From positions 248,001-312,000 of the forward strand of contig NW_012236499.1 of the NCBI RefSeq assembly GCF_000787575.1: 64,000 nucleotides of DNA, given 5' to 3'. Below, in pieces: positions 1,543 to 57,900 of this stretch. The stretch's first letter is position 1. Each line of letters opens with the position of its first letter. Under the pieces are notes generated by a model. That model saw only the letters and a program-made list of their open reading frames with translations, did not search any database and was not told the DNA's origin. Origin of the DNA: Acytostelium subglobosum LB1. Taxonomy: Eukaryota > Evosea > Eumycetozoa > Acytosteliales > Acytosteliaceae. Position numbers and translations under genes: made by a program.

Positions 1543-2193
1543 TATTATAAAGTATATATACTTAAGATTGATTATAACAATTATAAGATGAGATTGAATG
1601 AACTTATTAATGCAATTGCATTGTGTGTCATGTGACATCCATCAGTTCGTCACGTTGGTCACAATTCATAATTTTTCTTGCCTGGGACTTTGATGTTTCC
1701 AGCCATCCTGGAATTAAGAAGTCTGGAAGGTCTAAGGGTGGGTTGTCATTGTCCAATGGCAACGAGTTGAGTGGTGATGTGTGGTTGGAGGGAATGAATG
1801 TGAGTTGACAATCATACTCTAACACTTATCCACTCACACAGCGTCACACACACACTCACACAATGATGATGGATGTTGATGTGTCTTGAAAAGGTATTGA
1901 TTATTCTATCTATTTCCAATTACACTTTAATATCCATATCCAATGTTATAACATTTTGTTATTATTATACCTAAGTATAGTAATGATTACTTAATAAAGT
2001 ATTGTTTACCATTATTGGTAGTGATTACCTAAATTGATTGATTGATTGTTTAGTATTATGTACCAAGTTTGTCAATGATTGTCAATCCATGATTGTTATA
2101 AATTACCCTCTGTTGAGCGACTCCAATCAATCAATCACTTTGTTAATAATATACATATAAACTAACCTAAACTAAACAATACTTAATATTATT
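1543..2193. promoter_or_regulatory. Divergent intergenic region between the S28 peptidase and the CTDC protein
   Basis: These 651 bases separate two genes transcribed away from each other, so both promoters should lie here. The half nearer the CTDC gene is AT-rich and holds TTGATTGATTGATTG (about 2034-2048) and AATCAATCAATCAC (about 2126-2139). TTGA motifs are known binding sites for STAT-type regulators at D. discoideum ecm genes. However, TTGA/TCAA runs are scattered through this whole window, so a specific role is only a possibility. Confidence 0.4.
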
Positions 2194-4485
2194 ATGAAAA
2201 TGTTGTCCAACAGACTTATATTATTATCACTCTCCATGATCATTATTGGATTAATCTCCAATACTTATGGTATGTATCATATTGATGGAAACCAATCAAT
2301 CAATCAATCACTCACTAACACACAATCAAACAATGTAGCACTTGAGGATACAATCATTGACAATGACTTTGATGAATGGGATGTCAATGTGTGTGTTCGT
2401 TTGCCTGGTGGCTGCCGTCCACGTCTGGTTACATGTACCAAGGGTTGTGATGATGGTAACCTGTGTACGGTGGACACCTGTGTGAATGGTGCTTGTGTCC
2501 ATGCTCCCATCACCTGTAACGACAACAACCCCTGTACCGTGGACTCTTGTGGACCGACTGGATGCATCTACACTCCCGTGTCATGTAATGACAACAATGC
2601 CTGTACCGTGGACTCGTGTGGACCTGCAGGTGGATGCATCAACATGCCCCTGTCATGTGGCGACTCCAACGCCTGTACCGTGGACTCGTGTGACAACAGC
2701 ACGGGATGTGTCCACGTGCCCATCCAGTGTGATGACGCCAACCCTTGCACGACCGACTCGTGTGGCTCCAATGGCTGTGAGCATGTGGCTGTATCCTGTG
2801 ATGATGGCAATGCCTGCACGCTGGACTCGTGTGATGACAGTACCGGATGTGTCCACAAGCCTGTATCCTGTGACGATGGCAACAGCTGTACGAACGACGC
2901 CTGCCACACCACACTGGGTTGCCAACACATCAACATAGCCTGTGACGACTCCAACGCATGTACCTCGGACACTTGTGATGTAGTCAATGGTTGCCAACAC
3001 CATCCTCTGTCGTGCGATGACAACAACGCCTGTACCTATGACTCGTGTGACAACTCGACGGGCTGCTCCAACACGCCAATCTCGTGCGATGACAATGACC
3101 CTTGTACTGAGGAGTTCTGTGACCCTGCGACCGGCTGCCAGAGCTCGCCAACACCATGTGATGACGCCAACGCCTGCACAACAGACAGCTGTGACCAGAC
3201 CAAGGGCTGCCAGCACGTGGCCATCGCATGTGATGACTCCAACGCCTGTACCTTTGACAGCTGTGACAACAGCACTGGTTGTCTACATACTGCTCTGGCC
3301 TGTGATGATACCAACGCATGCACTGTGGACAGCTGCCACCAGGTCCATGGATGTCTACACGTGCCCTTGTCTTGCGACGACACCAACTCATGTACTGAGG
3401 ATAGTTGCGACCAGAACACGGGCTGCCAGAACAAGGAGATAGCCTGTGACGATTCCAATGCTTGTACCTTCGACAGCTGTGACCAGGCCACGGGCTGCCA
3501 CCACACACCAGTGATCTGTGATGACCAGAACGCCTGTACGGTTGAGAGCTGTGACAATGCTACGGGCTGTGTCTACTCGCCAGTGAGCTGTGATGACGCA
3601 GATCCATGTACACTTGACTCGTGTGACCGCGCCACTGGATGCCAACACTCCCCAATGTCCTGTGACGATGGCAACGCATGCACTCTCGACTCTTGTCAGT
3701 ATGTTGGCTGCCAACACGTGCCAGTGGGTTGCCCTGACTCTGACGCCTGCCATGTTGGCTACTGTGACAACTCGACTGGCTGTGAACAAGCGCCCGTGTC
3801 CTGTGACGATGGTGACCAGTGCACAACAGACAGCTGTGACCCTGTCAACGGCTGCCAGACCACGCCAGTGTCATGTGATGACAACAACGCCTGTACGACC
3901 GATGCCTGCAGCAGTACACAGGGCTGCACTCACCGACCAGTGGCCTGTGACGACCACAACGCGTGCACAGTGGAGAGATGTGACCCTGTCCGTGGATGCC
4001 AGAGCTCTCCGGTCAACTGTGACGATGGAGACCAATGTACGGTGGACAGTTGCGATCGCTCGAGTGGCTGTGTGCATACGCCGGTTAGCTGCAACGGAAA
4101 CGGCCATTCAAAGTGCGTGTCGAATGAGTGTGACCGCGTGCGTGGCTGTCTGAACAGGACCATCAGCTGTGACGATGGTAACGCGTGCACTACCGACAGC
4201 TGTGATCCGGCCCAAGGTTGCCAGCACCAATCAATCAACTGTGACGATGGAGACAAGTGTACTATCGACAGTTGTGATCGCGTCAAAGGATGTCTTCACG
4301 TCAACGATCCCAGTTGCAACAAGGTCACTGTTACCCGACCACCAGTCACCTTACCTCCAGTCATCGTGACCGTTCCGCCAGTCATCGTGACCACTCCACC
4401 AGTTGTTGTCACAACACCAACATGTTCATGTGATGAATGTTGTGGCGATCAATGTTGTTGGGATGTTGTAGTATTGGTTGATTGA
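2194..4485 (+). CDS. Secreted Cys-rich CTDC-repeat protein, EcmA/EcmB (prestalk extracellular matrix)-like
   Basis: This is an extracellular structural protein of the type found in slime sheath and stalk tube. An N-terminal signal peptide (MKMLSNRLILLSLSMIIIGL) precedes 26 tandem units of about 24 residues with the pattern CDDxNxCTxDSCDxxxGCxHxPxx, each with six Cys. The C-terminus is a Pro/Val/Thr stretch (repeats of PPVIVT) followed by a short Cys cluster (CSCDECCGDQCC). Units 19 and 24 are the most divergent. Positions 2270-2338 look like an intron (GTATGT...TGTAG, 69 nt, AATC repeats inside). Because it is a multiple of three and stop-free, the gene also reads straight through as 763 residues; spliced, it would give 740. 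The repeats make several long antisense frames that are not genes. It could be any of several paralogous ECM proteins. Confidence 0.88.
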   Translation: MKMLSNRLILLSLSMIIIGLISNTYGMYHIDGNQSINQSLTNTQSNNVALEDTIIDNDFDEWDVNVCVRLPGGCRPRLVTCTKGCDDGNLCTVDTCVNGACVHAPITCNDNNPCTVDSCGPTGCIYTPVSCNDNNACTVDSCGPAGGCINMPLSCGDSNACTVDSCDNSTGCVHVPIQCDDANPCTTDSCGSNGCEHVAVSCDDGNACTLDSCDDSTGCVHKPVSCDDGNSCTNDACHTTLGCQHINIACDDSNACTSDTCDVVNGCQHHPLSCDDNNACTYDSCDNSTGCSNTPISCDDNDPCTEEFCDPATGCQSSPTPCDDANACTTDSCDQTKGCQHVAIACDDSNACTFDSCDNSTGCLHTALACDDTNACTVDSCHQVHGCLHVPLSCDDTNSCTEDSCDQNTGCQNKEIACDDSNACTFDSCDQATGCHHTPVICDDQNACTVESCDNATGCVYSPVSCDDADPCTLDSCDRATGCQHSPMSCDDGNACTLDSCQYVGCQHVPVGCPDSDACHVGYCDNSTGCEQAPVSCDDGDQCTTDSCDPVNGCQTTPVSCDDNNACTTDACSSTQGCTHRPVACDDHNACTVERCDPVRGCQSSPVNCDDGDQCTVDSCDRSSGCVHTPVSCNGNGHSKCVSNECDRVRGCLNRTISCDDGNACTTDSCDPAQGCQHQSINCDDGDKCTIDSCDRVKGCLHVNDPSCNKVTVTRPPVTLPPVIVTVPPVIVTTPPVVVTTPTCSCDECCGDQCCWDVVVLVD

Positions 4486-6828: not shown

Positions 6829-9800
6829 TTAAGAAAACAGGATACCACTTGGTGAACCTGGATCAACTCTGCGAACTTGATAATGATGTGTTTGAAGTAG
6901 CTGGGATACTTGGTCGTGGACTGATACGTGACAATGTACACATACACTGCCACCAAGACCTGCGGCTGCTACTCTAAGTGCTGCCAAACCCTTGAACTGT
7001 TGATAGATGGAGTCAGCCAACTGATCAATCTCTGGCAATGATCTTTGGAATCCACCTGGCACATGGGCAAGATTACAATCTTTGTGTGCGCTATCGATGT
7101 TGTTTGTGAGGAATTGGATGTACTTGTCGAGTTGTTGATCACTGCATGAGTGTTGCTCGAGCACTCCCCATGGAGTAGTCTCAAAGTTGTTCCTATAGTC
7201 AACTGTTTGTTTGTCACCATCATGAGCTGCCTTTACAATCCTCATCAACTCTCTTGTCGTCTCCTCATTAGCCTTCTCTTCATATGTCACCCATCTACCA
7301 ATTATCCTTTTATACTCTATACCTCTTTCAATCTGTATGTTGTGTTAGGGCATTGTTCAATGCTCAATCATGATTGATAACAGTATGTACTTACCTCTGA
7401 CAATGCATAGAGTACAGACTTCCTGAGCCAAAGGGTCACACCACCAACATCGGACTGCTCTGGAAGTGCTTTGAGTAGTCGGTAGGTGAGTATGTATCGA
7501 TTGTATATGTTGTCTTTGAGTTCGGGGAGCTCAGTCTCGATAAGTCCACCGGCAGCCAGCTCACGAAGTAGGGGAGGGGTGTTGTTGTCCAGGTTAGGAC
7601 TCAAACACTTGGTGATGGCATTGATCTGTCGTTGATCCAATCCAGTGACACGCATGGTCTCCTCTTTGGCAAAGAATATCCTTTGGTTCAACATTGCTAT
7701 TGCCTCGACGAATGATGTGGCACAGAATGACTTCATGATTGAATGTGCCCATTGAGTGACCTGATCTGCAGTGGTTGTGCTGCCCTTGATGTAGCCATCA
7801 GCGATGCGATCGATAATCCATGATCTGGCACTCTGTGTTGAGAGACGAGGAATTGGACTCTCAGCCATCATCACAACGATCTCCTTTGGGAAATGAAGTG
7901 TCTTGATGAATCTCTCAGGGAATGATCCCACCACAGAGATCTGACCCTTTTTGGCAAAGAGCTGGGCAGTCTTGTCCGAGGCACCGGCTGCCTTTCCAAG
8001 GTAGTACTCGCCAAAGTCCATTTCGGCCAGCTGCTCCAATGACAACTTCCAATTGAACATTTTGTCCAATGACAATGCGAATGCACCTGTGAGTGCGGAG
8101 CTTGAGCTAACACCACCACTGTGAGGCAGACCCAGCTCACCATTTGCAGAGAATATTGCCACGATTGACTTGCGTTGATCCTTCAATCCTTGTAGGTCCT
8201 GGACAACATAGCTTGGATACTTGTCCACGTTGTTGGTTGAAAGTATGTATGCTAGAGTACTCTTGATGTAGCTGTCCCACTGTTTTGTTGACCAAAGTGT
8301 TGGAATGGGCTGGCCTTGACCCTGTCCCTGGCCTTGGACATTTCCGCTAAGTTGTTGAATGATGTGATCTATTGTGAATGATGCATTGGGGAATGTTTGA
8401 GCGTTCACATTGTAGAGTATGACGCTGCCAGATGTCGAGACATCAGAGATGAGCTGAGCAACACATAATATCTCACTCTGTGTTGTTGCATTGATTGTGA
8501 ATCCTCCAAGCCCTTTGAGATCACTATGACCCATGAACACACGATCTCTTCCATTGGAAGCAGCAACTACACATGGATTCTCTTTGACAAATCCATTGGC
8601 CATTGCATGTTGAAGTAGCTCCACCATTGTATGTTGGCGATCCATCAATACACGATCTTCCAAAGAATATCTAGACTGGAATAATTGTGAAACAAACAAC
8701 TTGTTTGTCAACAAATGTGATAGATTGCTGATACTCAATGAAGAGTTGCGACACACATTGTACCAGAATCCCTTGCTCACTGGTGTGGCCATTGTTGAAC
8801 CAGTTAGTTGGCCATTCTGATCAAACTGTAGCTCCTCGGAAAATATGAGACTGCCTGGACGTGCATTCACTTCCACAATGAATGGAGTGAGATCGCAGGT
8901 GAGTATCATGTCAATTCCAACGATGGGCAGTCCAGTCTCTTCAAGGATGTCTTGAGCAATTGAACTCCATTGTCTCCAGTGCGAAGTGGTGATAGGCTTG
9001 GGGAGGTCTTGTAGGATGCTTGACACTCGGACGAATCTTGACTTGCGGATACCAGGTGATATGATCGTTTCATTTGGACTGCCAGCTTTGACAATAGCAA
9101 TAGTTGTCAAACCTCCAATTGATGCATTCAATCTTACAATGAATGATACTCCATCACTCTTGGTCTTGATCGACTTGACAAATGGGGTGAGCATGACATG
9201 ATCATATCCAATGTCAAACAACTCTATTGCCTGTTGAAAGCATTGATCCAGCTGATCGGTGGTGAAGTATGTCACATGTTCAGACTCTGTTGTGTTGGAT
9301 TGAGGCTGAACTATGATGCCACAGGAGTGATCGCTCTGTTGTATGATTGACTGAGCATGTAATCTGATGTCCTCCTTGGTGACACATAGATCCGCAGGGA
9401 GAGAGACTGTAGGGAGCACCATGACGCCTGATAAGCTGCACAGTCCAGAGTTGGTCATCTTTGATCTCAACCAATACTTGTCATCACATCGCTCATTGCT
9501 TCCAAGGTAATCGTTGAGGACATGTATACCATCTTGTCGCAGTTCAGAGTCGAGCTTATGATGGAACTCCGTCTCTTGGTTCATTTCCTGATTGGGGAGC
9601 TCGAGGAGATAGCATGTCGCGATGTTGACATGTCTGTCACTCTGCTCGGGGGTCAGAGGGAACTCAATGAATACTGTGCCATCACTACCACGAGTGTCTC
9701 GGGACATGGCCACACATCTATTGAGTCGGAGTCTGTTGTCACTCTTATCGATCCAACTGTAGTGTAGTCCAATCAGATTGATTGGTACGTTGGAGGTGGA

Positions 9801-12800
9801 CTGTAGGGAGTGGAAGAATGGATAGAGGTGATTGAACATCAACGTGGTCTTGCCAACAATGATCGCACACGTCACATGTTGATGATCAGTCGAGAATATC
9901 TTTGAGAGTGCATCATCATCGATTGAATCCAATATCTCCAGGTCTGGCGTCATCTGATTACTCAACTGTCGATCCAATGAATGTTCGACCAATCTCTTCA
10001 ATGTCTCTTTGCTGTTCGATTTGCTTGAATCCTTGGCACTCAATACCCGTAGACCCTCTTCCAAGTACTTTGGCGGTGTGTCTAGAAACATGCATGAATA
10101 TATGGATGGATGCGACAACATATGAGCAACATGGTCAGCCTTGACTGAGTCAGTCATGAGTTTATTTACCTTTCAGGCCAGAGAGGTTAGGATCTGCGAT
10201 CAATGAGTCGGTAATGTCCTTTGTTGACGTGTTGTGATGGACATGTTGCTGATGTTGTTGTTGATGGGATTGGGCTGGGATGGGTGGATGCGACGTGTCA
10301 TCCTTGCCACCACCATGATGCAGGATGGTCCATGAGTCCTTGGGCAGGGTATCCAGGAACAGTTGTCCAACATTTAGGAAGTTACCCATTACGATACGAT
10401 CACTAACACCAACCTGTGACCAATCAATTGATGACGTGTTGTTGTTCTTGGCTACCTGTACCTGGTTCTCCATCTCTCTCTTCCAATAGTTTGGCCACAA
10501 TCCAATACCAACGTTTGGTTCCAATTGCCAGAACTGCATGTCTACGATCTCTGCCTCAAACTCCTGACCATCAACATCGTCCTTGAATGTGAACACCGCC
10601 TGTTTGGTACTTTGATGGTATGGCACGATGTCTAGCAGTCTTGCCGTGGGCTTCAGTCGCTCATTGGTGCCCTTCCTGACCCAGATGGGCTCGGGGATGA
10701 AGTCCAACATCAGATATCTTGGCCACCAGATGGGTGTGCCCGTGGCATCCTTCTCCTTGATATGAGGGAATCGCTCATGGTATGAGTTCATCGTGTGTCC
10801 ATAGAGCTCGACCTTCTCGCTCCAATACTTTGGTCCAAATTGTGCGATGGCCGACATCACACGACGACCTGCATCCTCCAACTTGCTGATGAATATGGAC
10901 TGGAGATGTGGACTGATCATCTGGGGCGTGAGGATCTCTAGAGAGCCCTGGCGACCTACATTGGTGGCGATCTGTAGACTGTTCAATGCGATTGGATGTG
11001 ATGCGCTCCAGTTCTCATGATTGGTGAGGTCGCCTGACTTGGGCACACTAGTAGACATGATCACACGTAGTGTACCATAGACAGTGTCCTTTGGATGTCT
11101 GTTGAGCTCAACGGCAACACCATGATCAGCAATCTGTCGCTCAACCATACGATCAATAGCACTTGGACTCATCCAGTACAATGGTGAACAAATGATTGCA
11201 CGTTGTATCACAACATTCTGTGCCTTTGACACATGATAGATGAACTGTGATGCCTTGTCCAGTGCTGTCTCGTCAAGATCTGTGCCGGTGCTTGCGCCTG
11301 AGCTCGAGAGGAGGTCGAAACGAGAGAGGTTCCTGGCGCCAGACTCAGCCGCACCCTTAACAATGATGATTGGATGCTCCTTGACAAAGGGTATCAAACG
11401 TGCTCTGATCTTGTCCAATGTTTGCTGCTTGGCTTGCTCGCTGTCTTGGGTTTGATTGATGATCTGGGTGGTCTCGATTTGCAGCCAATCAATCTCCTGT
11501 GGCAGCAACACTTGTGTCTTGTCGCTTGGATTGAATATAAGCGGGTACAATGATTTGTTGTAGGTCATCTCGTAGAGGAATGGTGACTTGTCTGTCGAGG
11601 GGTAGCCTGCATTCGACAGCGCAGACTCGAGATGATGGTGATGCAATGTGACCACACTGCCAACTATGATTGGCGAGGTGAAACGTGCAGCCACCAGCAC
11701 ACCCTTGGCGTGAAGTTGTTTGTTGGCAGCCAGCTCAGCAATGAATGATTGAACCTTGTCAGCGGACAGTCCTTTGGCCGCGGCCAAGTAATGTCTGAGC
11801 TGTGGCTCACTGCACCAGAACACTGCATTGTCGATCGTGAGGAATGATCGATCGTTGTGCGTTTGCATCAGTCCATCACGTGTAATGAATAGGTTGTCAC
11901 CAAGTGTCGGTCCCTCCATCATTGCACGAGAGTAATGTGTTCGACCGATTGGACTGAGGAAAGCATGGTTGACGCGCGATTTGACGTCGAGGCCCTTGTT
12001 GTCATTGGCGTCAAGACGATCAAATACCACGGGTGTCTGGAAGCCATCATTCTTGATGAAGGCCACCTCACGGAGTTGATTGTACACACGCCACAGTTGT
12101 TCGAACGATCTTTGATTGTTGCCATTGCCAGCGCCAATTGGTTGGACGATGACAGAGTCCATGTCCACACCAGATGAGGCTATTTTCACATCGCCAACAA
12201 ATAGGTCAAAGAGGGTCTTGTCGTTGCCAAGCTGCTTCTGGATACTGTTGGTCTTGGTAGTGATGAGCGCGCGGATGAAGCGGTAGAGCGCGCGATGTGA
12301 CTGCCAGTAGAGTTGATATTGTTGCTCACGTGAATCAGCACGCATTATTCCAATGTCATCAAAGTATCGACCAAAGAGTGGATAGCGCTTGGGATCAAGA
12401 CACCATGGTGTGTACTCAGAGTAGTGATCGTCGATGGTCTTGGCAAAGAACTCAGCCAAACTACGCCACACGCTGGCTTCGGCAATGTCTTCAGTGGACG
12501 TCGACAGGTATGGTGCGGCCTTCTCCAACAACAACAACACGGCCATGATCTCTGTTGTGATTGATGTCACTCTGATCCAGTTTGCTGGGTCGACCTTGTG
12601 TGCGCATTCATAAAGTTGATTGAGTGCACCAAACTCCTCGTATGAGCCCACGAGCTCGTCCCAACTGCGAAGGTCTATTTCGCGACCTGCCGCCTGGCCG
12701 GCCATCTGGGCGATCAATGTCCTCAGCCTGTCGACGTTGGGAGGGTTGTAACGATTGACTAGAAGTAGCAATGCCTTGGCGCACAGGTTGTACGTGGAGC

Positions 12801-15800
12801 CAAGGGTTAGGTTGGAACGCTCAATTGTAGACATGTTGAATGTCTCCTCGAGCAGACTGCTGGCCAACTTGTTGAGATTGTCATGGATCGGTGTGAGCAA
12901 TGTAGTGTACATATAGTCGATTGTTACATCGCGCATCTGTGTTGACTTGAGCTGATCATGCAGGGCTCCCAGTGAGCTGAATCCATTCTCGCGGAACTTG
13001 AGTACGGCATTGCGCTTTGACTGTGTCTCCAACTCTTTGCGACGTGTCACAGCGGTCTCGACATGCTCCTCGCTTGCCTTGACACTGAACATCTTGCCCT
13101 TGCGATCCTTGAGCTGTAGCTTGGCAGTGGCGAGCTGTGGAGTGAGCATGCTAGTGAAGCGCTCGTTGGACTCAAACTGGATAATATCAATGTGTGCCAC
13201 ACCATTGATGCGATTGAAGGCACGTTGGATAGTGGTCAATGAACGATTGATGGAACGTGACGGTGATCCATTGAGTATAAGGTATCCACCAATGGCAAGG
13301 AACGCCAGTGGGGACAAGGATCCGGCATGAGGTGCGTCTCTGAGTGATTCGAGTGACTCGCGAATGACTACATCGCGTCGTCTATATCTGTTGGCCAACA
13401 ATACACGCTGTTCGTATTGTACAAGTATGTCGATCTCGTTCTGCAACTGTGATGAGTGGAGACTGGGTGGCGCAGACTTTGACACGGCGACAAGGCCAAC
13501 GCCAAACAGACGTGTGTTGATCTCGTGCACCAGCTTTGCCAACTCGGTCTTGTCGTCCAGCTGCTGTTGTGTGAGGTTGGCAATCTTCTCCAGGTACTCG
13601 TAGGCTTGGATGGCGCGAGACTCTTGGCGTGCCACCTCCTCTCTGAGGTCTGTGCCTAGAATTGGCTGGTACTGGTCAGTGCCCCAGCCGAATGCCTTGT
13701 AGACTGAGCGACGACCTCTTGTGCTGCGATCCTTCCAATTGGTGATGCGATTGCCCTGCTCATCGATGCCACGACAGGCAGCATACCAGAGCATGACATC
13801 CCGCTCAAACCAACATCGATGGCGACCCTGTGACACATGGTCATGCGCAACAAGTGAGCTGTTTGGTCGACCAATGAGCATCAGGTCGCGTAGAGTTGCC
13901 GGGTTCATGGCTAGGAGTTGTGGATGAGTTATTGAGAACACGACAATGTCCTGACCTTGGAGGTCGCGCAGGAAGTTGTCTCCTGGGCCACGCAGACGCA
14001 AGGACAGTGGGTGTATCCTGCCACCAATCTCGCGCTTCAATGCCAGCTGTTCATTCTTTGGCAGGTTGGACAGGGGTATCCACTCATCGATGAATCGTCT
14101 GTGCAGCTGTGCGTTGGCCTTCATTTGATCCACAGAGATACCGCGACTGCGCAACAACTCTTGTGCGTAACTGGCCTCGTCTCCAAGAAGTGTGAGTGTC
14201 TCTGCGCTAAAGCCCAACAGATCCTCGCTATCAACACCAGGCACGGCAGTGATGGTGATGTCTCCTACTGTTGTATGAGGTGGGAACAATTGTTGTAGCC
14301 TGGTGATCATGTCTGAGTGCTGTTGGTTGTTGTTGTCAAAGTCATCGAGCGAGAGGAAGTGTGTGGCCAGATAGCGACGGATCTTGATGTCCTCGGGCTC
14401 GGATGAGTGAGGCAAGAAGCCGACCCAACTCAAACGAGCAATCAGCTGGCCCTCCTCGTCCAGGGACAGCGCGACCTCGCGGTAGTGTCCAGAGAGGATG
14501 AGGAATGCACGCATCACCCAGGCGAATCGGACGTCGGGTGGGGGCTTCTGATCGTCATCGCCCTTGTACACACCAAAGAGGTGGACACGCAAAGACTCCT
14601 CCTCGGGGAGGGCAGCCTTTGGATTGAGTTTGATGGCAAGCTTTCCAGACTCTGGGATCTCGCGAGTCATTGGGAAGACGACTGATCGATTGACTTGTTC
14701 ACCGCCCAGTGTGATCTTCTTCTCGGCCCATGCGCTCCATAGTGCCGCGTGCAGGTCACGGCCCCATGATACGAGTGGCGAAGGTACACCAACGGATCCA
14801 AGGATCTGAGCCAGCTTGGCGATATGCAACAGGATAACCCCTCCACTGAGCTCAATGTATTGGGAGAAGTACTCGCGTACATTGCTCATTGATTGTTGAG
14901 AGTGGAATCGTTTCTGGAGTGCCTGTTCACTGAGGAACTGGTCGGCAGCCCAGCGTTCCCACTCGCCAGCACTGGCGAATCCTGGTTGTGGCTGCAACAA
15001 CCTCAACCATCATTGAGATGATNCTGTTGGTGGAGATGTGCGGGAAGGCCCACCTGGGACAGCTTACGAGAGTCTTGATGAGTGACCACGAACAGTTTGA
15101 ATAGCAAGTCCTTGGGTATGCAGTAGCCTGCTGTCGGGCCACTCATGTAGCCTTCGGCCTCTTTGTGTGCGGCAACTGCTAGGCCACCACGTTGATTGAA
15201 TTGGTATGCCAAGTCCTCAATATCGCCAACACCCAGCCTCTCGACAAACAATGCCTGAACGTTGCGAATGGAGCGCACCAGGGCTGTCCACTGGTTCTCG
15301 CTGACCTTGAGATTCTCGGCAGCGGTGGTCGTGCGAACGATCGGGTTGTAGTTCATCAGTTGGTAGAATGCACGGGCATGTCTGGCGCACAGGGGATCGG
15401 TCACACCAACAAACTGTGGCCATATCTCCACAGACTTGCGCTCATCCTTGCCCAGATTGACACGACTTGGTCCGTAGACAAAGTGATAACGCTTACGTGA
15501 GCCAGATGGACGTATCTCGCCAGTGGCGCTCGATGGCGAAGGGAACATCACACCACAGCTGTAAGCGAACCTTGGGTTGGACATCTGGTCATGCAGGTGG
15601 TGCTTGGCAACGACCTCGCGACGCGCAGTCGTCGAAGCCATTGCAGTGCGGCTGCGATGATATTTGTTGGCGCGTTGTTGCAGCGCCAGATCGGGACGCT
15701 CACAATCCAGTTGTTCAAGGGCGATGCGTCTCGACTCGCACTTGACGTAGTTCTCAAACTCCTGTCTATATACACTGGACTGCTTGATGATGCTCTCTAT

Positions 15801-18773
15801 CTGTGCGCGATCGCGAGCAAAGTCCAACCTCTGGAACTCTGCATCATTCCTGTTCTGTACAAAGATGAACTCGTATGCTGCTCCGGACAAATGTGTTGAG
15901 TCGTTGGCCGCCATCACACCGAGCACCTGGTTTGGCTCCTTCTTGACAGCTTCCTCCAGAGACCATGATGATGAGGCACTAAGTCTGTCGCACTCATAGA
16001 GCACAGACAACAATGCCACCTGTCTTTGAATTACAACATGATCACCAAGTACACGTAGGATTGCTCTGTTCTCATCCAATGACATTTGAGTCTGGTACTG
16101 ATCCAGTATAGGTTGATAACTGAACTCCTCAATCACCTTGCGACCAATGATTGCAAACTCCCTATTATACTGATTGATCCTCTCTCGCACCTCTGACACC
16201 AACTTATAATACTCTACAATGTTCTTGAGTGTCTGTTCGAGTTGATTGATCGATTTAGTGAGTTAGTGAGTGAGTGCATCTAGATCAACCGATCAATCAA
16301 ACTTACCATCTCCTCCTCTAGAACAGCTTGGATGAATCCTTCGACGAGACCAGGCGCCTCGGTGGTTAGAAGATGGAAGGCTGGCATCTGTCGTTGCTTC
16401 TTGAGCGCCATGAATGAGATGCGATCGTGATGTTTCTTGTCAACTGGTTCACATGACATTGCCTGTGTGACAATGCGCTTGCTCTCTTCAACAACCTTGT
16501 CAGTGTTGGTCAACATGTCTCCAAGCAGCAACATCTTGAGTGCTTCTATCCTAGTGATGAAGTTTGATTGCTTCCAGTTCATCTCCACAGTGTCCTCGAC
16601 CTTCTCTGCCATCTTGTCATACACAGCCTCGATGTGAGCAGTGACTCGAACGATCTGATCGACATGTGGTGCCAGTGTTAGACAGATAGCAGTGTGGCGT
16701 GTGACATGATCCGACTTCATAAGCTTGTCGACATTCTGTTGCAACTTGGAATCGGAACACACGAGCAGGTCGCGAGCCAATGCCACGTGCTCCGACAGGA
16801 TGGTGAGCTGGATGTTCTTGCTCCACTGCTCGGCCAGAGCGCGGATTGTCTGCTCCAAACCCTCCTGGTCGACCTCGAACACTGTCGTGTGTTTGCCATC
16901 CTCCTCGATCGTGCGCTCATAGATGAACAGTGGGATGGCCTCGATGATATCGGTAGCCTGTTCGACCCAATCGTTCGATGGTGACATATACAAGTTGGAG
17001 CCACCGATGCGAACCAACTTCTGCAGCACCTCTTCTTGCTCCAGCTTGGGCTCGAGCTCATTCGTTCTGAATCGCTCACTGCCACTTACACTTGGTCGTT
17101 GAAGCAGGATGGAGAAGGAGCTGGGGACGGCGGGCATTGAGTGCAGGCGCTCCTCCAAGTCGTAGAGGTTCGTCCAGATGGAAGATCGCGCACGGCCATA
17201 CAGATCATCGACAACGGCATGGAGGTCGCGGAACACCTTGTGCATTGAACTTGATGTGTCGACCATGCGATGCACGCCCTCTGCGCGCCTGGACAGGTTC
17301 ACCTTTTGTGTGTCCTCAATCACAGCCACACTCTTGGTGCTGACAATAGTCAACACTTCGCGTAGATGCTGTAGGGCACCTTGGAACTGTGTGGCCGAGG
17401 TCAAATTGTCGTTGACCGATGAGACCAACGCACGGAATCGTCCAATCACAGGTTGCAGATGCTCGGTGAGCTTGAGGAGCTTGTCACAAACCTGCTGGAT
17501 CTCAGTTGTCGCCCATTGAGGTGGCTTCAATTTCGCGAAACACTGTCTAACATGCTCGTCCGACGAACACTTGATGAGCGCCACGATTAGCTCTCGAATC
17601 GAGTCGTCGATCCTAATGTAGTTGGAGCTGGCAAAAAGTGTTGCTTGGTTGGAGAACGCGCGACTCTCACGTCCCACAACTATCGTTGGCGAGAACGAGT
17701 CGGTGTCCGATAGCCAGGTCTCGCGAACCTGGTTCGACACACGCACGGCGTTGGCAGACTCTACACGTTGATCAAACTTCCTGATCACCTGGTAGCAAGC
17801 TTCGCGACGGTACTTTGTGTCGTCAATGGCCAATGCCTGGCGCAGGTCTTGGCGGTTGTAAGGCAGGTCGAACAAACATTGCGACAAGTAGCATGAGACT
17901 CGTGAGTCTCGTCGGTTGATCAGCTGGACGAGCTGTTCACGGGTCGCCGCGCTGCTACCCTCGGCGCCAGCGCCTTGCTCAAATAGAGCGTTCTCCAACT
18001 GTTGACTCGTGACATACGACGCCAGACCAGCCTGCTTCAGCTCGTCGTTGAACTCGGCATTCAACTCGATCGTGTCCATGACCAGAGTGGCAAACAGTTG
18101 ATTGGCATCGATTGGGTTGGACTCGCTCTTTAGGTGGTCGATCAGATTGTTGAATGATGTGTTGTCATCGTGGTGTAATCGTTGTAGGTAGGAGAGTGTG
18201 GAGTGCAGGGCTTCGCGATGTGGCTGGCTATTCTTGGCCAACACACAATGTATAATGAAGGTAAGCAACAATGATGTGAGGACTGGTGAACCGCCAGAGA
18301 CATCGACAATTGATTGATCAATCACTCCATGACCATTGAAGTATGATGCCATATAACAATGTCCTTCAAAGAACTCCACGTTGATGTTGAGTACACCAGC
18401 AGCATTGATGTGTTCCAAGCCATTCTTGGCCATCAAGTACTTGAACGCTTGATTGATTGGATCATGATATATTTGGCATACATCCGATGATGGCGACTCC
18501 TTACTCCAACCAATAGTCTTATTCTTTATATCGATAGATAGTGTTGCCGATGCTTTATATTGTCCAAGTGTTCTCTTTGCAATCTGTACATGTTGTTGTT
18601 GTTGCTTTGAATCCAATCTTGATACTATTCCATACAGCATCAAACATGTCTCATCAATCTAAAGTTGGTAGGGCATGGAAGGATAGTTTGAATGTCAACA
18701 TCAACAACATAATTAAGGAATATTCAAAACATACGACATTGTTGAAGGCAGTGGATGTTGTTGGTAATGACAT
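6829..18773 (-). CDS. Giant multidomain protein (about 3,880 aa): two ATP-grasp-like modules and a C-terminal GHMP kinase
   Basis: Six exons join in phase: 18773-18735 (MSLPTTSTAFNNV), 18658-16307, 16232 to about 15005, about 15004-10170, 10081-7395 and 7332-6829. Introns are 18659-18734, 16233-16306, 10082-10169 (ending TTTCTAG) and 7333-7394. The first third, helical, matches nothing I recognise. Around 11330-11385 lies a Gly-rich lid-like KGAAESGARNLSRF, with LEPNVGIGLWPNY near 10500, as in ATP-grasp enzymes. A second ATP-grasp signature (VGIDMILTCDLTPF...EVNARPG) sits at about 8850-8930. GHMP-kinase motifs follow: LPHSGGVSSSSAL (about 8070-8130), GKAAGASDK and the late AAAGLGGSV (about 6960-6985). 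The C-terminal part therefore probably phosphorylates a sugar or similar small molecule, and ATP-grasp modules usually ligate or phosphorylate; the substrate is unknown. The frame changes next to the N at 15023, probably an assembly fault. Reading 10162-15006 and 7368-10157 as separate genes is less likely, because the 88-nt intron joins them cleanly. Confidence 0.75.
15003..15025 (-). other. Ambiguous base and frame change inside the giant gene
   Basis: A single N stands at 15023. Upstream coding (minus strand) runs in one frame to a stop at 15003-15005. The frame that stays open for the next 4.8 kb is blocked by a stop just upstream, at about 15008-15010. No GT..AG intron of normal size bridges the two. 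Both sides have strong coding character and the flanks contain similar short words (CAACA, CATCTC), so a faulty contig overlap is the simplest explanation. A true break in the gene is possible but less likely. Confidence 0.6.
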
Positions 18774-20641
18774 CTTTGACATACACCAAAGTCTGTCTGT
18801 CTGTCTGTCCTGTTTGAGATAGATAAGATAATAGATTATATGTGAATGATGAGATATAGTTATAACTAGATTTTAATAATTGATTGATTACAAATTGAGT
18901 GAGCTTCACATCTCACCATTCAATTCCAAAATGATTGGTGGATCACACACCACACTAACTCTCCCCACCACACCTCATGATGATCAGTGTCAGCAGAAAA
19001 AGCATGGAGAAGCCCATTAATGTTGTTGATTTGATTGGCATGCATGCCATTCTTCGTTATTGATGTCTAAACCTGGTAAGACCCTGGTGAATAACACATT
19101 TAGGATTACTACTACAATAGTAGAGCAGGGTGGAACAAGTCTGTGATAAGGATATAAATATCAATCTTTGTGACACTCGCACTGTGCACTCTGGGATGGA
19201 TGGTATCTATCTCCTTCATTAAATGATGATGATGATTCTAACCAATTCATCATTGTAGGTAGATGGAATTCATACATTACTATTGGTCTATCATTGAAAT
19301 TGTGACTATCTATCTACCTTGAGGCCAACTACCCTCTCTAAGACTACCTTGAGGCCAATTACTAATTACTCTACAATCTATCAATCATTAACAACAACAA
19401 CAACAACAATAATAATCAATCACCAATGAGAACACACCACACCCACACTTGAAGGATCAATCACCAATATATATGTGTCTCAACACCTTACTGTTGTTGC
19501 CTGTAGCACCTCTTTTAGGTGTGGTGTGGTTGATGATTGTTTGTTTGATTGATTGAGTGAGTGAGTGTTTGAGTGAATGAGTGATTGAGTGGTGCTAGTG
19601 GCTATTGCTACTATTACTACTACAACACACCAGTGGGTGTTGTTGTTGTTGTTGTTGTTGCATATGTGAGAGTGAGTGAGTGAGTGATAAGAGAATGATT
19701 GTTGTTGTTTGATGCTATCTATGTAGGTATGTATGATGGATGAAACAACAATATGGTATAAATTATTTTAACTATGTGTTAAAACCTTTAACTCTTACAT
19801 GTTCCACCTGAGGGGAACACCATCCCTCAACCAACAAACAATTAATTAAATAAACATCCATTCATTTCTTATCTCCACTCTTCTTACTCTCTCTCTCTCT
19901 TCCAAATACAGCACATACAGTCTCAAGACATTCAATCAATCAATCAAATAGTCAAACAAACTTGATCATATTATTATTATTTATATACTAATACTCCAAA
20001 TCAATATCAAACTATCTGTTTGGTCATCATCACAGCGAATTGGAAATCAGATCAATAGAATAGAATGTAATATTTATATCCAATATCCAACAACAACCTT
20101 ACAACAACAATCAGATAATATTATCTGTTTTGTGATTGTGTGTGTGTGTGTGTGTGAATGTCAGATAATGCACGACTTGATTTATAATTATTATTTATAA
20201 AACTATGAATCTAGAAATTAGGAGATTGATGAGTGTGATTGATCATCAAACACACACACACACACACCAATCAATCCCAAGCAAGACTGTTCCTCTTTAC
20301 GTGAACTTTTGTTTAACAAACCCACCACCCTTCTGGGTTAGGTTATGATCATTCATATTCATTCATTCATTCATTCCTCGCATCAAACCCCTTCACTTCC
20401 ATCACTTCCATCACTTTCTTCCTTCCTTCATTCATTCATTCATTAACTTCCAACCAACCAATCAACCAACCAACCATCACACCTCACTTTCACTACCCAT
20501 GTATTAACATCATCATTCCAACAAATAATAACAACAACATCACTAGTGAGAGTGGCGACAGGAAACACCGCAACAACCAACAAACATATAGACAGACAGA
20601 CAGACCATCGATAGACCGACAGAAGATAGAGATATTATAAC
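18774..20641. promoter_or_regulatory. Long divergent intergenic region, simple-sequence rich
   Basis: This 1.87-kb stretch lies between the starts of the giant gene (minus) and the ASH2-like gene (plus) and should hold both promoters. I see no coding frame of note. It contains (GTCT)n near 18790-18808, two copies of CTACCTTGAGGCCAA (19314-19328 and 19344-19358), (GTT)n near 19640-19660 and a small GTTCC/GGAAC hairpin (19801-19818). It also has (TG)10 at 20137-20156 facing (CA)10 at about 20249-20268, (ATTC)n near 20350-20376 and CCAACCAA runs near 20452-20474. The last 100 nt before 20642 are probably 5' UTR. Confidence 0.5.
20137..20268. repeat. Inverted (TG)10 / (CA)10 microsatellite pair
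   Basis: A (TG)n tract preceded by GATTG and a (CA)n tract followed by CCAATC lie about 90 nt apart in opposite orientation. Together they make an imperfect inverted repeat of about 25 nt per arm. It lies in the promoter side of the ASH2-like gene. Confidence 0.7.
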
Positions 20642-40036: not shown

Positions 40037-41183
40037 TGTTTTATATATAATGTATAATGTATATATCTGTATGAATGTTTGAACAAGATCAAGATATGAT
40101 ATTTGAAAGGAAGTTGACCAATGGTGCTTGCTTGCATGCATTGGGTTCAAAGTTTTATTCAATGATCTGGGTCACGTGTGAGGTTCATCCAACAACAATC
40201 ATCATTCTTGGCGAGGGTCAACAGACATCAGATTCTTGATTTGGTATCATATAACTCGTTGTTGAGAGATTCATAGTTTGCAACAATACATCAAATACTC
40301 GAGCATCAACAAACAAACTTAAACGCAATTACATTACACAATGGAAGTAAGTAAGTAAGGAAGGAAGGAATAGTACCACCTGGTGGCCTCATCTCATAAA
40401 TGATTCGCGAGAAAAGAACTTGGTATCTCCATTTAAATAGTCGGGAGAGGTATCTACCCAAACAGTCGCATATATAAATGTAAATGGCTTCCATCTCTCT
40501 TGGATGAGTGGCCATATGGGTAGAGGGTAGTAGAGAGAGAGATGTCGCAAAATTAATGGCTTCCCATCATCGATGGGCGGCAGATAAGATAGTAGGAGAG
40601 AGACTGGCAATGTCTGACTGACTGATTGATCATCAAATACATATATATAATAATTGGCCTCCACCTTAATCGTCCATACTCTGCGAGTATCTTAGCTTAG
40701 CTTGTTACATGATCATGTTGGATTGGATGGCATGGTGTGTGTGATGGATGTACTAGATTCCATCGATGGAGTTGATTGATTGATTGATTGATGTTGGTGT
40801 ATTTATTTCGATAGTATGGCACTGAACGATGATGGTATATATGTTGGTGAAGGACAAGTTATGGTTTGTGGAAACATATCCAGTGAATGATTACTATCAC
40901 TGTGTATGTATGGACGATAATGGTTGATTGTTGTATAACTGGCAACAACATTATTCACACAATNGTCAATGTCGACACTCCACTGGAGGTTGTTTGTGCA
41001 ATAGATCGCTGATGTATATGTATGAACAATATGAATGTATATGTTTGATTGATTGGAATGATTGTTGGATGATTGATTGTTTGTTATGGACAATAGGTGG
41101 TGGAAGCTAAGCATTCTGGATAGTAGTAGGTAGGTAGAGTGGGAGTGATATGGAGGAAGAGGAGAGAGAGGCCAGCAACTACG
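40037..41183. other. Intergenic region with an assembly N
   Basis: About 1.15 kb lie between the dehydratase start and the 3' end of the SAP/RRM gene, both on the minus strand. It holds the dehydratase promoter, GGAA-type short repeats (about 40350-40369), a (GATT)n run (40771-40791), many TGATTGATT words and the second N at 40964. I see no convincing gene or structured RNA. Confidence 0.4.
40964..40964. other. Ambiguous base (N), probable assembly join
   Basis: A lone N interrupts non-coding DNA. Together with the N at 15023, which sits exactly at a coding frame change, it suggests that lone Ns in this assembly mark joins and not single uncertain bases. Confidence 0.6.
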
Positions 41184-51942: not shown

Positions 51943-54900
51943 TTATTTCGACTTTGATGAAGAAGTGGAGGAAGCAGCAGAGGCAAAGAGAGTCTGCAGT
52001 GATTCGAGACACGATTTGAACTGTTTGGCCCTGTCTGACTGCTCAAAAGCTGGAGTGTGAGCAAGTTCCTTGTTGAATGCTTCGAGCATCTCACAAACAG
52101 CGGTTAGGTGTTTAGAGTTTGTCGAAGTGGCTGATCGTCCATTGCCCAACAACTCCAATGACTTGAGTGTGTTTGTGAGGTCTGCCAAGTGCTGGTCGAC
52201 TTCGGAGGCGGCATTGTCGTTGGATAGTGAATTGATTGAGGCGATCGACGTCTGCACTTGGTCATACAGAAGTTGGCACCAGAGAGAGTATGTCGGGTTG
52301 GAGTCCTTGGACACCAGTCCGTCCGTGTCGATCACGAATCGTTTGTTGATATCAAAGAACTCTTGGTTGCTTAGCGTACTGGTGTGTTTGATGGCAAAGG
52401 TGATGATGGCGATCTTCTCCTCGTCCTTGATCTGAGCGGAATACTTTCCAACGGCTGTAGCCAATACCTTGTAGCCATTCTCCAGACCAACTGCAATCAT
52501 CTCCTTAATGATCTTGAAAATGAGTATGATGGACTTTTGCTGGACGGGCGAGTTGGCATTGCTGTGACCACCACAAAGGTTGAGAACATCCAACAACATT
52601 ATGTAGAATCGCTCGCTCCTCTGTGTTTGGTTGGCGGCCAAGTTGTCGAGGTCTGCACTCTTCTTGTTGAATATCTCAGTGACCACCACGATGAAGCCCT
52701 CTGGACATTCAATGGCAATCTGATTGATTAACTTGTTGATGTGAGGCAGAAGATGTATGTTTTGCTCGGCGGCAGAGATCAGTGAGTTGACAACTGTCCT
52801 GAAGGATTGGCTTGAGGCATCCCACAACTGGGGTGGAGACTGTGGCATGGACTCGCCCACAACATTCGATGCCGCTGGAGAGGTATTGTCTTTGCGAAGA
52901 AGATTCAGTACCTTGGACAGCACCTCGAGGAGCTTTGGTGCGATGTTGAGGTCGGTGGTGTGTGCCTTGTTCTTGAGTATCTTGCACAGTACTTCAATGG
53001 GTACCCATCTTTCGTTGGACTGGTGCCCACCGTATGTGTTGAGATAGGCCTGGGCATCCTTGCGCTTGGTTGTCAGGATGCTAAGCAATGGCAACATATG
53101 AGGTGGATAGTGATGGAAGTTGATGAATCCCATGCAGTTGGTGAGGATCTTGTAGGTGGCGGCTGGTATCCTCTGTGCTACCAACTCCAATATTTGGATC
53201 AGCACTTTGCCCACTTCGGCGTACTCACCACACTCTAGATAGAGGAAGTTGATCGCCCAGTAGAAGTTGTTATGTGTGCCAACCATGTTTAGGAACTCCA
53301 TCTTCTCCTGTGCCAGGTAGAGAATGATCTGGTAGAAGCCTGGCAGTGACTTTTTGTTGTACAGTTTGAGTTCTTCGTTTGGCGAAATGCTGATAAAGTA
53401 GTCCATGAGCTTGCCCTTGACGGGGTCATCCAGCATGAGACGCACATTGTCAGGGTACTCATTGAGCATGTTGGCAATGAATCGCACACACTCCTGACGG
53501 TTCCTATCGGTGGCCACCTGACAGGAAATGAATTGCTCCAACATCTTGAACATTGGTTGCTTGTACTCTCCGAGCAGCCTCTTCTCCTCGTCCGAGATGG
53601 TGCACAGTGTAAGCAGTTTGAAGTAGTACTCAAACCTGCCGCTCTGAACGTCCTTCTCCTCACGAGCCATCACCTTGACATCCTTGGACTGCTCCATTAG
53701 GTATTGGAAGAGTTCGTTGACACGGTCTGCGTTGGATTGTGCATCGTCCAGACTGTAGAGTGCGATGAGCAGTTTGTAGGCTTCGTAGCGCACATCGATC
53801 GAATCGTGCTCCACCAGCCACCGGATGAGCCATTCGTCCTTGTTGAGCATGAACCATTGGCCAATGATCGGGGTCTCGGCAGCCTGTTGCAAGAGATACT
53901 TGATGTGCGGCGCAAATGCGCTTTGCTTGACCTCCTCCATAAACTCAATGAACGCCTTGATGGCACTGTGGGCACGGTCCCTCTGCCAGTGGTCCTCGAG
54001 GGTGATCAATGTGATCAGTGCGTCTGGAGTGCTCCTGCTGTCTGTCTGGCGCAGCTGGCTTATCAGATTCTTGCTGAGCTTGATATCTCCAAAGCACATA
54101 TGGCGCATGATGTCATTGGATGCCTTTAGGTTGATCGAGTCAATGACGGTCTTGATGTAGAAGTGTGGGTTGGTGAGCATGTACAAGTCATCCTCGTTGA
54201 TAGCGATTGGCTCATCGGTGTGTGTCGGCAGGCGAGTGTCGTCCTGTGTTGAGTATCGAGTGTGTGCAGCCTGTACGAGAATGGCGATTGTCTCGAGCAT
54301 CGTTTGGAGCTGTGGAGAGTTGTACTTGTCGCCCATCTTGACCTTCTTTTGTGGTGGGTTGGTCTTGGCCATTGGAGAGTCGTCGCCCATGTAGAAGTGG
54401 ATCAGACGCGAGATGACGCAACGATTGAGCAGGAACCTCCTCTCCTCTATGCCAATGTTGGCAAAGTCACGTATCAGTGTGAAGTACTGATGGAAGTGCT
54501 TCCAGTACAGTGAGACCTCCTTGATAAAGTCTAGGTACGTGTCCATAAAGCGAGCAATGTATGACTTGGGACGGCCAATGAGATGAGATGAAGAGGACAA
54601 CTCCTGGTCCATCACGTTTTGGTTCAGTGCCTTTTGCTTGCCACTGGCAGACCTGTCACTGTCAATGTCAATGATGTCCATTGGCGAGTCATTGTCACCG
54701 TTGCTGTCGGGCGACACGCTCTCCATGTCAAAGTAGTACTGACGGTCCTCAGGCAGCAGTGTGGCAAACACCTGCAGAATGATCTTGGACAGTGCCTCGC
54801 GGGGCTCGGTGGTGATGCAGACAAGCATGTTCTGCTTGATCCACGTTGGGTCAGTGGTGACCGTGTCCAGGAACCATCTGCATGCTCCTTGGTGGCTCTC

Positions 54901-57900
54901 GTACATTGCGTTGAGGAATAGGACAAAGTCGCCGAGTTGTTTGCGCTCCTTGGAGTGGGACAGAGTCTCAATGACGAACCTGGTGCCAAGCTCGATTGAC
55001 ATCATTCTCTGATCAAAGTCTGGATCATCAGACATGTGAACAACATCGTTGTTGTTGTTGTTGTGGTCGATCGCAATGTTGTGTAGACCGTCTACATTGT
55101 TCTTGGTGATTTGATTCAAATGAATGATGTTCGATATGAATTCAAAGTAGCCAAGGTCAAAGATGTTCTTGTCTGTGAGGAACTTCATGTTGTTCTTCCA
55201 CACGGTACTGAACATTTCACGAGGCACCAACTTGGACTGCTGTGCCTGTGATAGACTCTTGAACATCGAGGGGCCGACAGGAGTGGTCGTAGTGTTGTTG
55301 ACAACGTGTGAACGTTCGTAGAACAACATGTAGGCATTGTTGTTGCGCTGCGAAGTGCGAATGTTGGTCTTGCCCTGATCGAGAGAGATCGAGTCGTAGC
55401 CACCAAAGCATGCCCTGGAGATGTCCTCTGGATTGAACACCTCGGTGAGCTGATCGTTGAATTGAATCCAGTGGCGTGGCCGGCCGGGGATCAGTGGCTC
55501 ACGCTCCTTGATGAACGAGTAGTAGTGACCAGAGTCTGCCGTTCCAGAGTGCACCAGGATGCCACTAAGATCGTATTGGTAGTAGGAGGCTGGTTGCATT
55601 GCGGGCAGATCCTTTGGGATGGGCAGGTTGTTGGCTTTGGCCTTCTCGACGGCCTCCTTGCCCTCGAGATACTCCTTGGTGTAGGGGGTCATGTCCAGGG
55701 TCATTGGGAACTTGAGGGCGTCGTTGAGCTTGGTCCTCTTCATCGTGTCAAGATCAAACTCAAAGCGCTTGTTGTGGATGATCAGTGTGTTTGGAAGACT
55801 CTTGATACATCTTCGCATGAGACACTTGACCTTTTGTGAGCATTGGCTGCAGAAGTACTTGTTGTCGCCATCCAATGTCTCAGACTCGACAAACAGTTGT
55901 AGAGACTCTGTGATGTCCTTTTTGTTCTTAACCTCAACGCTGATCGTGTAGAATGGCTCCTCCCTCTCAGAGACGTGAGCACACTCTTGGGAGATAAACT
56001 GATTGACAGAGGCACCGCCAAAGAACTGGTTCAGCAGCTTCTCCTCCTTGGTGCCCTTGAGTTGGTTCTCCAAGCGATCAAACAACATGTTGAAGAACTC
56101 ATCCACATCCATTTGAACGTAGGTGTTGATTGGCTGGCCCTCGTACTTGTAGGCCAGACAGAAGTCCTTGGGATCGTGTGACTTCTTCTCACTCTCCTGC
56201 AGGTTGGCAAAGATGATCTTGAGCTGGTAGAGCAGGGAGTCTGGGTTGGCGTTGGTGGCCGAGTCCTCTGCCTGAAGTATACTGTAGCGGAAGCCTGGAA
56301 TCATAAACAGTTGCTGCATCAATGAGTTGATGTAGCAGGTGGCGCCAAGATTCTTCAGACCAACGTAGCCACACGATGACTTCTCATTGCCCATGGGGAA
56401 GTAGTTCCAGACTGATCTCCTCTCGTCAGGCTTGTTCTGTTCGATGAGCTGCAGCACCAGCTCCTTGTAGTTCTCCTCGCAGTTGTTGGCCAACTCTAGC
56501 AACAGTGCAAAGCAAGCATCTCGCGAATCCTTTGACTTGGCCTTTGGTGGACACAGGGGTCCATGGTTGTCTGCCGTGGCAATGTTGAAGAGACACTCGT
56601 GGAACACTTCCTGGATCAGATGGTCGTTGCCTGCCTTGACCTTGAACTGGTGTGAGAAGCCGACAAGTGTGCGCAGCATATTGATAATGCCAATCAGTAC
56701 GTAGTCTGACTGGAACATGTTGGGCGACTCCACTATTGGGTGAGACTTGAGCATGGCCGCCAGTTCCTGGAGGAGCTTGGCAAACTTGGGCGTGTCACCA
56801 TTGCGACAGCTATCTTGCAACAGGTTGAGAAGTAGGAGGAAGAATTGGTTGCTACTGAAGGCATACTTGTCAGAGCCAACGATGAAAGGCAGCAGAGTCA
56901 GACATTGTGACTGGAAGAACTCATGTGCCACTGCGTTGTGCTGACAGAGCGTGTAGAATCTGTTGCTGGTGCACTCGCGGATGGATGGATCGCTGCTGTC
57001 CAACAAGAGCAACTGTATCCACTTGGTAATGTCCTTTCTCTTTGTACAGAACTGGTCCAGCAGATCGTTGTTGTGTTGAACCATGGCGAGAATCAGTGTC
57101 AAAAAGTTGCTAATGATGTCACCGTCATCAGTGACGTGAGGCAACATAAGGTCCTCCTTCTGAACGGTGGGGAGTGCTTGCTTCCAGGCCAGATCCATCA
57201 GACGGTTCAGGAAGGCGGTTGGTGTGAAGTTTGGCACGACAGCCGCCGAGACACCGGAAAGGTTGATGGTGAGGTTCGAATGGTCAATCACGAGCAGGAC
57301 GATGGTGTTGATCATAGACGACAGACATCTCTTACGCTTGTTGGACGACTTGCAGGTCCACACCTGGTGGAAGTCATCGCGCATCAGTACCTTGAACAGG
57401 TGAGAGAGGCCACCCGTTGTGATGAATCTGTGTCTCCACTCATAGTTGTTGTCCTCACGCTGCACCAAGTTCTCGACGATCAACAGCGTGTACAATAGCT
57501 TATAGACTGACGATTGGTTGATCAAATCGCCCCAATTGAACTGTTGTGTTGTCTCTGTGAAGCTTGATGGGATGTTGGCCAGTGCCTGGAATATCTGATG
57601 ACTGACGGGCAGCAGCATGAGTACGTCCCATACGGTGGGTGCAATCTCCTCGATAGCCAAAAGGGAGAACAACAGACTGAGTTTGCTCTGATCAAAGTGA
57701 ATCTGGACCATCTGAGCGGGCTCCTGAATCTTTGGCTCTGGCCACTCGTTGAACATCAGATGGTCGTGGTTGTGCACCTGGTAGTCGCTAAAGGTCTCGT
57801 AGTCAAATTGCAACATCTTGGTCTTGTGCACGATGTAGATTGATCCTGGATGTGCGTGGATGATACTAGCAAGACGCTGCTTGATCTGTCCAACGGTTTC

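Follow-up and report, generated by a model that had tools for sequence, protein, structure and literature searches.

The minus strand of the 64,000-nucleotide stretch of Acytostelium subglobosum LB1 DNA analysed here (hereafter the window) carries a giant, 12-kb, intron-split gene, which our analysis confirmed as real, and it raises the question of where a protein of such a size and architecture comes from and what it could do. The initial annotation knew of no counterpart for this architecture. Searches in bacteria returned the same layout in Candidatus Omnitrophota, and what the window holds is an entire giant gene of bacterial type within a eukaryotic genome, not a new amoeba fusion; a fusion restricted to dictyostelids was dropped once the long Omnitrophota ORFs came up.

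The context of the window is dictyostelid. Pfam matches were obtained in nine of the ten neighbouring ORFs scanned, with domains that include 22 Dicty_CTDC repeats, SGS, JAB/MitMem_reg, RRM together with SAP, and UCH, and the GC content of the giant gene by codon position lies within the range of these neighbours. Elsewhere in the window, the ORF at 2176-4482 is Cys-rich and holds the 22 Dicty_CTDC repeats, and a group of ORFs at 51946-59850 on the minus strand, which may form a single large gene, has UCH and ARM repeats of the UBP24/USP9X type. The A. subglobosum genome (30.7 Mb, 56 contigs) was searched using exon 4 of the giant gene as query, and a single copy was found. Seven matches to GHMP_kinases_N were detected in this genome, the giant gene included, and a six-frame search with TIGR03026 gave one locus, situated elsewhere, the giant gene not being listed.

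The gene was rebuilt on the minus strand as six coding blocks leading from an ATG at 18782 to a stop codon ending at 6829. A start at 18773 had been proposed; the first in-frame ATG is the one at 18782. Exon 1 (18735..18782) encodes the first 16 residues, which do not form a signal-like N-terminus, and is separated by intron 1 (18659..18734; 76 nt, GTATGT...TTTAG) from exon 2 (16307..18658). Intron 2 (16233..16306; 74 nt) and exon 3 (15024..16232) follow, then a low-quality spot (14985..15023) and exon 4 (10170..15009; about 1,613 residues). Intron 4 (10082..10169; 88 nt, GTAAAT...TTTCTAG) lies in a Q/H-rich linker ahead of exon 5 (7395..10081), and intron 5 (7333..7394; 62 nt) precedes exon 6, which includes the stop codon (6829..7332). 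The coding residues, 1,203 before the N at 15023 and 2,676 after it, sum to 3,879, in agreement with the six blocks and roughly 3,880 residues first proposed. All four introns are GT-AG, 62-88 nt long and 60-67% AT. Their check against bacterial alignments covers introns 2 and 5, introns 1 and 4 being in weakly aligned stretches. Intron 2 splits the amoeba sequence ...LEEEM/TLKN... at a place where the bacterial ORFs read uninterrupted through ...LEEEMALRN..., and intron 5 splits ...LSE/IERGIEY..., a block that is likewise unbroken in the bacterial ...QEVERGLAY... and ...SEIARGLQY....

The bacterial counterparts were reached with six short conserved-looking blocks as query, which led to two contigs (L007 and L008) of Candidatus Omnitrophota, a phylum whose members are described as living mostly in association with hosts or prey. 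On each contig lie unbroken ORFs, thousands of residues long, that follow the order of the amoeba protein, which is colinear with these giant ORFs from about residue 40, in exon 2, to its end. Over most of its length the amoeba protein is 37-46% identical to the Omnitrophota proteins of genomes G001, G002 and G061, and the value falls to 25-29% at the C-terminus. By blastp, the first part of the amoeba protein is 40% identical to G001 over 1,123 columns, the second part is 46% and 26% identical to the L007 ORF (on the same contig as G001) over 1,580 and 1,087 columns, and identity to G002 reaches 40% over 2,086 columns. Exon 4 alone is 46-48% identical to the three closest ORFs. A colinear alignment across thousands of residues, with E values of 0.0 for the main segments, is not due to chance.

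Relatives of exon 4 were found in ten of 384 Omnitrophota genomes (G001, G002, G061, G242, G332, G279, G027, G189, G093 and G041), the other 374 giving none at E 0.001, and a profile of the KGAAESGARN region matched nine of the 384. The giant ORFs (loci L007, L008 and L025-L035) have both module order and sequence in common with the amoeba protein. G061 has a single ORF of 3,930 aa with the same layout, extending about 140 residues past the shared part, and the shared unit of G001 and G002 sits within longer ORFs. The G001 ORF adds WD40 repeats; in that of G002 (L008:11846-16573), the ATP-grasp and GHMP modules are separated by a MobA-like nucleotidyltransferase, and the GHMP kinase is followed by a PIG-L-like module, just under its cut-off. 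Upstream of the giant ORF of G061 is an ORF of the ROK family, which we take to be sugar-kinase-like.

Among the collections searched, relatives spanning the full length of the giant protein were found in Omnitrophota only. No relative was detected in viral contigs with six queries; with a seventh, the viral contig L047 was retrieved and rejected, its product being by sequence an ordinary 462-aa nucleotide sugar dehydrogenase. Plasmids (two window queries and one from G061) and phages (one from G001) gave no match. A first scan of the genome collection with exact 8-mer patterns, an insensitive approach, returned none. A second scan of this insensitive kind, the one with the six blocks, returned the two Omnitrophota loci, to be set against the ten of 384 Omnitrophota genomes of the later search, which used a different release and may include genomes absent from the first. 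Two neighbouring Omnitrophota segments were also searched in the amoeba genome, with no positive control, and no further genes were found.

Compared with the Omnitrophota ORFs, the amoeba copy has introns and the Q/H-rich linker, and lacks their hydrophobic N-terminus and the separator AGLEE. The starts of eight bacterial ORFs were read: a hydrophobic stretch exceeded the sliding-window threshold in G002, G027, G279, G242 and G093 and was seen by eye only in G061 and G001, while the G041 ORF showed none there. At the same threshold, no hydrophobic start was found in the amoeba protein, five internal windows of which pass the threshold inside aligned domains. The signal-like starts (ORFs of L025, L026, L027, L028, L030, L031 and L034) are often followed by LR-x-P or LR-x-Q. 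The modules resemble enzymes that depend on ATP, and their export would be odd.

AGLEE or AGMEE, also SGLEE and TGLEE, is a short separator repeated between modules (L025, L026, L027 and L029). The AGLEE codon pattern, which also fits phenylalanine, was in excess in four of 20 Omnitrophota genomes tested, with 75 copies against 18 of the reversed pattern in G001, 121 against 12 in G002, 33 against 4 in G061 and 30 against 8 in G332; the other 16 genomes have 1-9 copies (controls 0-17). The separators occur in three of the four closest relatives of the amoeba protein and were not found in the amoeba protein itself or in the G242, G279 and G027 ORFs. They could be processing sites of exported polyproteins.

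To place the amoeba protein among these relatives, trees were built. With 11 rows, it falls in a clade with G001, G002, G061, G242 and G332 (support 100/99), the inner order of which is poorly supported. With seven rows, leaving out G332, G189, G041 and G093 as partial or long-branched, the amoeba protein joins G001, G002 and G061, with G242 left outside (support 84/98). A constraint that sets the four bacteria apart from the amoeba carries a cost of 14.6 log units and is not firmly rejected (AU p 0.057); one that keeps G001, G002 and G061 together is not rejected (AU p 0.291). The amoeba row is long-branched and of unusual composition, and its nesting inside the Omnitrophota group is favoured but not proven. 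A transfer from bacterium to amoeba is favoured by the diversity of the bacterial rows, by their hydrophobic starts and by introns 2 and 5, which cut stretches that are continuous in bacteria. The giant gene also has both a eukaryotic chromosome context and spliceosomal introns.

It is unlikely that an ancient amoebozoan or eukaryotic gene was passed to bacteria, or that the same domains were assembled independently. A eukaryotic origin draws on the fact that A. subglobosum was the sole eukaryote genome searched and that a position of the amoeba outside the bacterial clade is only weakly rejected. However, the bacterial rows differ widely: the identity between two of the closest is 47-58%, more distant ones are 21-31% identical to the amoeba protein, and bacterial end branches reach 2.67 in the 11-row tree. 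Moreover, the homologues reside in long bacterial ORFs, seven of eight with a hydrophobic stretch near the start, and AGLEE separators are present in some of the bacterial genomes. As for independent fusion, it cannot yield colinear homology across regions without named domains. The favoured reading is descent from a giant multi-module Omnitrophota-type protein, which was most likely taken up whole by the dictyostelid or an ancestor.

The integrity of the amoeba copy depends on the spot at 14985..15023. The initial annotation had a single clean frame change at the N; we observed two, the second within about 35 nt of the N at 15023. When the N is omitted, the amoeba sequence reads IISMMVEVVAATT, matching the bacterial VIQMAVELAAAQ. 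The simplest reading is that the N conceals two close frame changes resulting from a sequencing fault, which leaves a small chance that the gene copy is broken. That the transferred gene is now a recent pseudogene is quite unlikely: two frame changes in about 35 nt would fit such a decay, but both sit at an assembly N, the remaining coding sequence is open, and the catalytic residues are kept. A second single N occurs in the window at 40964, so other gene models of the window may have local frame faults.

Four of the junctions first proposed were retained as introns; at one of these, near 10160, a skip of about 25 nt gave way to the 88-nt intron 4 as the better reading. It is very unlikely that this point separates two amoeba genes, one ending at 10162 and the other starting at 10157, for although the exon 4 frame stops (TAA) 4 nt ahead of an ATG in the next frame, the frames leave no space for untranslated ends, are joined by the 88-nt GT-AG intron, and correspond to ORFs that are fused across the same point in G001, G002 and G061. 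G242 is not decisive here since its sequence, next to N bases, falls into three overlapping frames.

Pfam and NCBIfam account for little of the giant protein. The GHMP kinase module occupies 6829..8654, contains intron 5 and has its third motif, AAAGLGG, in exon 6. The GHMP kinase first placed in the C-terminal third was borne out, since Pfam GHMP_kinases_N scored 25.3 bits against a cut-off of 22.3 and profile matches included N-acetylgalactosamine kinase (5.4e-11) as well as AbGHMP (3.7e-13). The galactokinase equivalog TIGR00131 was not reached (18 bits against a cut-off of 226.65). The amoeba SGGVSSSSAL and AAAGLGG are matched in register by G001, G002 and G061; for the Asp of GASDKTA this holds in G001 and G002, with a shift of one column in G061. 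The module has in common with galactokinase and N-acetylgalactosamine kinase the phosphate-binding motifs, a His/Asp pair that presumably contacts the sugar, and an Asp that is presumably catalytic; it differs from them in a changed first motif and in being fused to other modules. FKP-type fucokinases are GHMP kinases fused to other sugar-activating modules, and the family resembles them in this respect, G002 having its MobA-like nucleotidyltransferase before the kinase. Unlike FKP-type enzymes, the amoeba protein gave no nucleotidyltransferase match in Pfam or NCBIfam and has ATP-grasp and dehydrogenase-like modules instead.

The ATP-grasp module proposed at VGIDM...EVNARPG (8742..10004) is sustained by a profile match to cyanophycin synthase (1.3e-4) and by weak matches to Pfam ATP-grasp families, none at its cut-off (best ATPgrasp_ST, 18.5 and 19.8 bits against 31.4). 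It carries an EVN/EAN (ExN) motif. The segment thus shares the ExN metal motif and a local profile match with RimK/cyanophycin-synthase-like ligases and differs from them in staying below every Pfam cut-off. The upstream segment KGAAESGARN...LEPNVGIG (10489..11376), also proposed as ATP-grasp, is assigned by motif only. K, ESG-R and ExN are conserved, with K and ExN invariant in six of six rows and, in a wider alignment, K in nine of nine rows and ExN in all eight rows that cover the motif. Support from Pfam, PDB and models did not follow: no Pfam match was obtained, a search of PDB with six rows at E up to 1 gave no ATP-grasp entry and one unrelated match, a search with nine rows at E up to 10 gave no entry, and comparison with the other ATP-grasp profile gave no usable match. 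Two structure models, one covering both ATP-grasp segments and one the dehydrogenase-like segment, were built from alignments limited to the window, L007 and L008 rows; they were of low confidence (mean pLDDT 46.2 and 39.2 for the two models) and too weak to be relied on by themselves. Foldseek on the low-confidence ATP-grasp model returned 290 matches, one of them at E <= 0.001, in a table that does not give the matched segment; the 38 best rows we take to be ATP-grasp enzymes.

The N-terminal 1,200 or so residues had been described as without a recognisable fold. The description no longer holds for residues 1046-1180 approximately (15096..15497; ENLKVSEN...GYCIPKD), where a match to the catalytic segment of the nucleotide sugar dehydrogenases was obtained; no convincing named family was found by Pfam in the N-terminal region encoded by exon 2. 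TIGR03026 was matched at E 0.1 or better in all seven family members scanned (best 2.1e-12), and for the amoeba segment the E values were 3.8e-6 in a first scan and 2.1e-6 in the family scan, with 26.8 bits against a cut-off of 189.8 over model positions 144-272 of 413. Whole-ORF scans of G001 and G061 at E 0.1 gave no TIGR03026 match, which appears when the region is scanned alone. With a profile of the segment, PDB entry 3g79 was matched at 4.1e-6, and three retroviral matrix entries (E 0.002-0.07) were taken as chance. Foldseek on a low-confidence model of the segment gave nothing useful. K210, N214, C272 and D276 are invariant in seven of seven rows, and these Lys, Asn, Cys and Asp, presumably the catalytic residues of nucleotide sugar dehydrogenases, are what the family has in common with TIGR03026 proteins. 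A pairwise alignment of the ordinary dehydrogenase of L047 with the segment (E 6.9e-6) takes in the K, EN and GYCIPKD motifs. In contrast to ordinary dehydrogenases, all seven rows have Ser in place of the Glu of PERV, and the NAD-binding and C-terminal domains are not recognised in the amoeba protein.

The amoeba protein retains the catalytic residues of its GHMP kinase, its ATP-grasp module and its dehydrogenase-like segment, and those of the GHMP kinase and the dehydrogenase-like segment are also present in its closest bacterial relatives. From these motifs, we infer that the giant protein may activate a sugar by phosphorylation, carry out an oxidation or thioester step, and perform a ligation, driven by ATP, to an amine or an amino acid. 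The protein would be made as a single cytosolic chain, in which the dehydrogenase-like segment, with its Lys, Asn, Cys and Asp kept and Ser for the PERV Glu, could provide the oxidation or the thioester step at its Cys. One or two ATP-grasp ligases would join a carboxylate to an amine or a comparable group, and the galactokinase-like GHMP domain would phosphorylate a sugar at C1. Together, the modules would activate and conjugate the sugar, with the intermediates staying on one chain. Whether the chemistry is sugar activation and ligation of this kind is close to evenly balanced; the nucleotidyltransferase and PIG-L modules of G002 and the ROK-family ORF upstream in G061 point the same way. 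We give about an even chance to the fuller scenario, in which the whole protein of about 3,900 residues was captured in one event from an exported Omnitrophota multi-enzyme, lost the export signal and AGLEE, gained four introns and is now a mega-enzyme of the cytosol that activates and ligates a sugar.

Amoebae are known to have received genes from bacteria, as in the case of the dCTP deaminases and ThyX of social amoebae (PMC10733785). A transfer of the giant gene was not reported in the titles and abstract openings of the literature on Omnitrophota giant proteins and dictyostelid transfer that was covered, most subscription papers and bioRxiv lying outside this coverage. If true, the transfer would be unusual for its size and completeness, nearly 3,900 residues being in the same order, and the protein would rank among the largest single proteins of bacterial origin that a eukaryote has domesticated. 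Many dictyostelids are amenable to culture and genetic modification in the laboratory, so the function of this Omnitrophota family of giant proteins could be probed in living cells. The giant ORFs of this phylum are described in PMC10066038 as ORFs in which few domains are annotated and whose roles are poorly understood; if the transfer is true, culture of the amoeba would open a way into the giant-protein biochemistry of an uncultured phylum.
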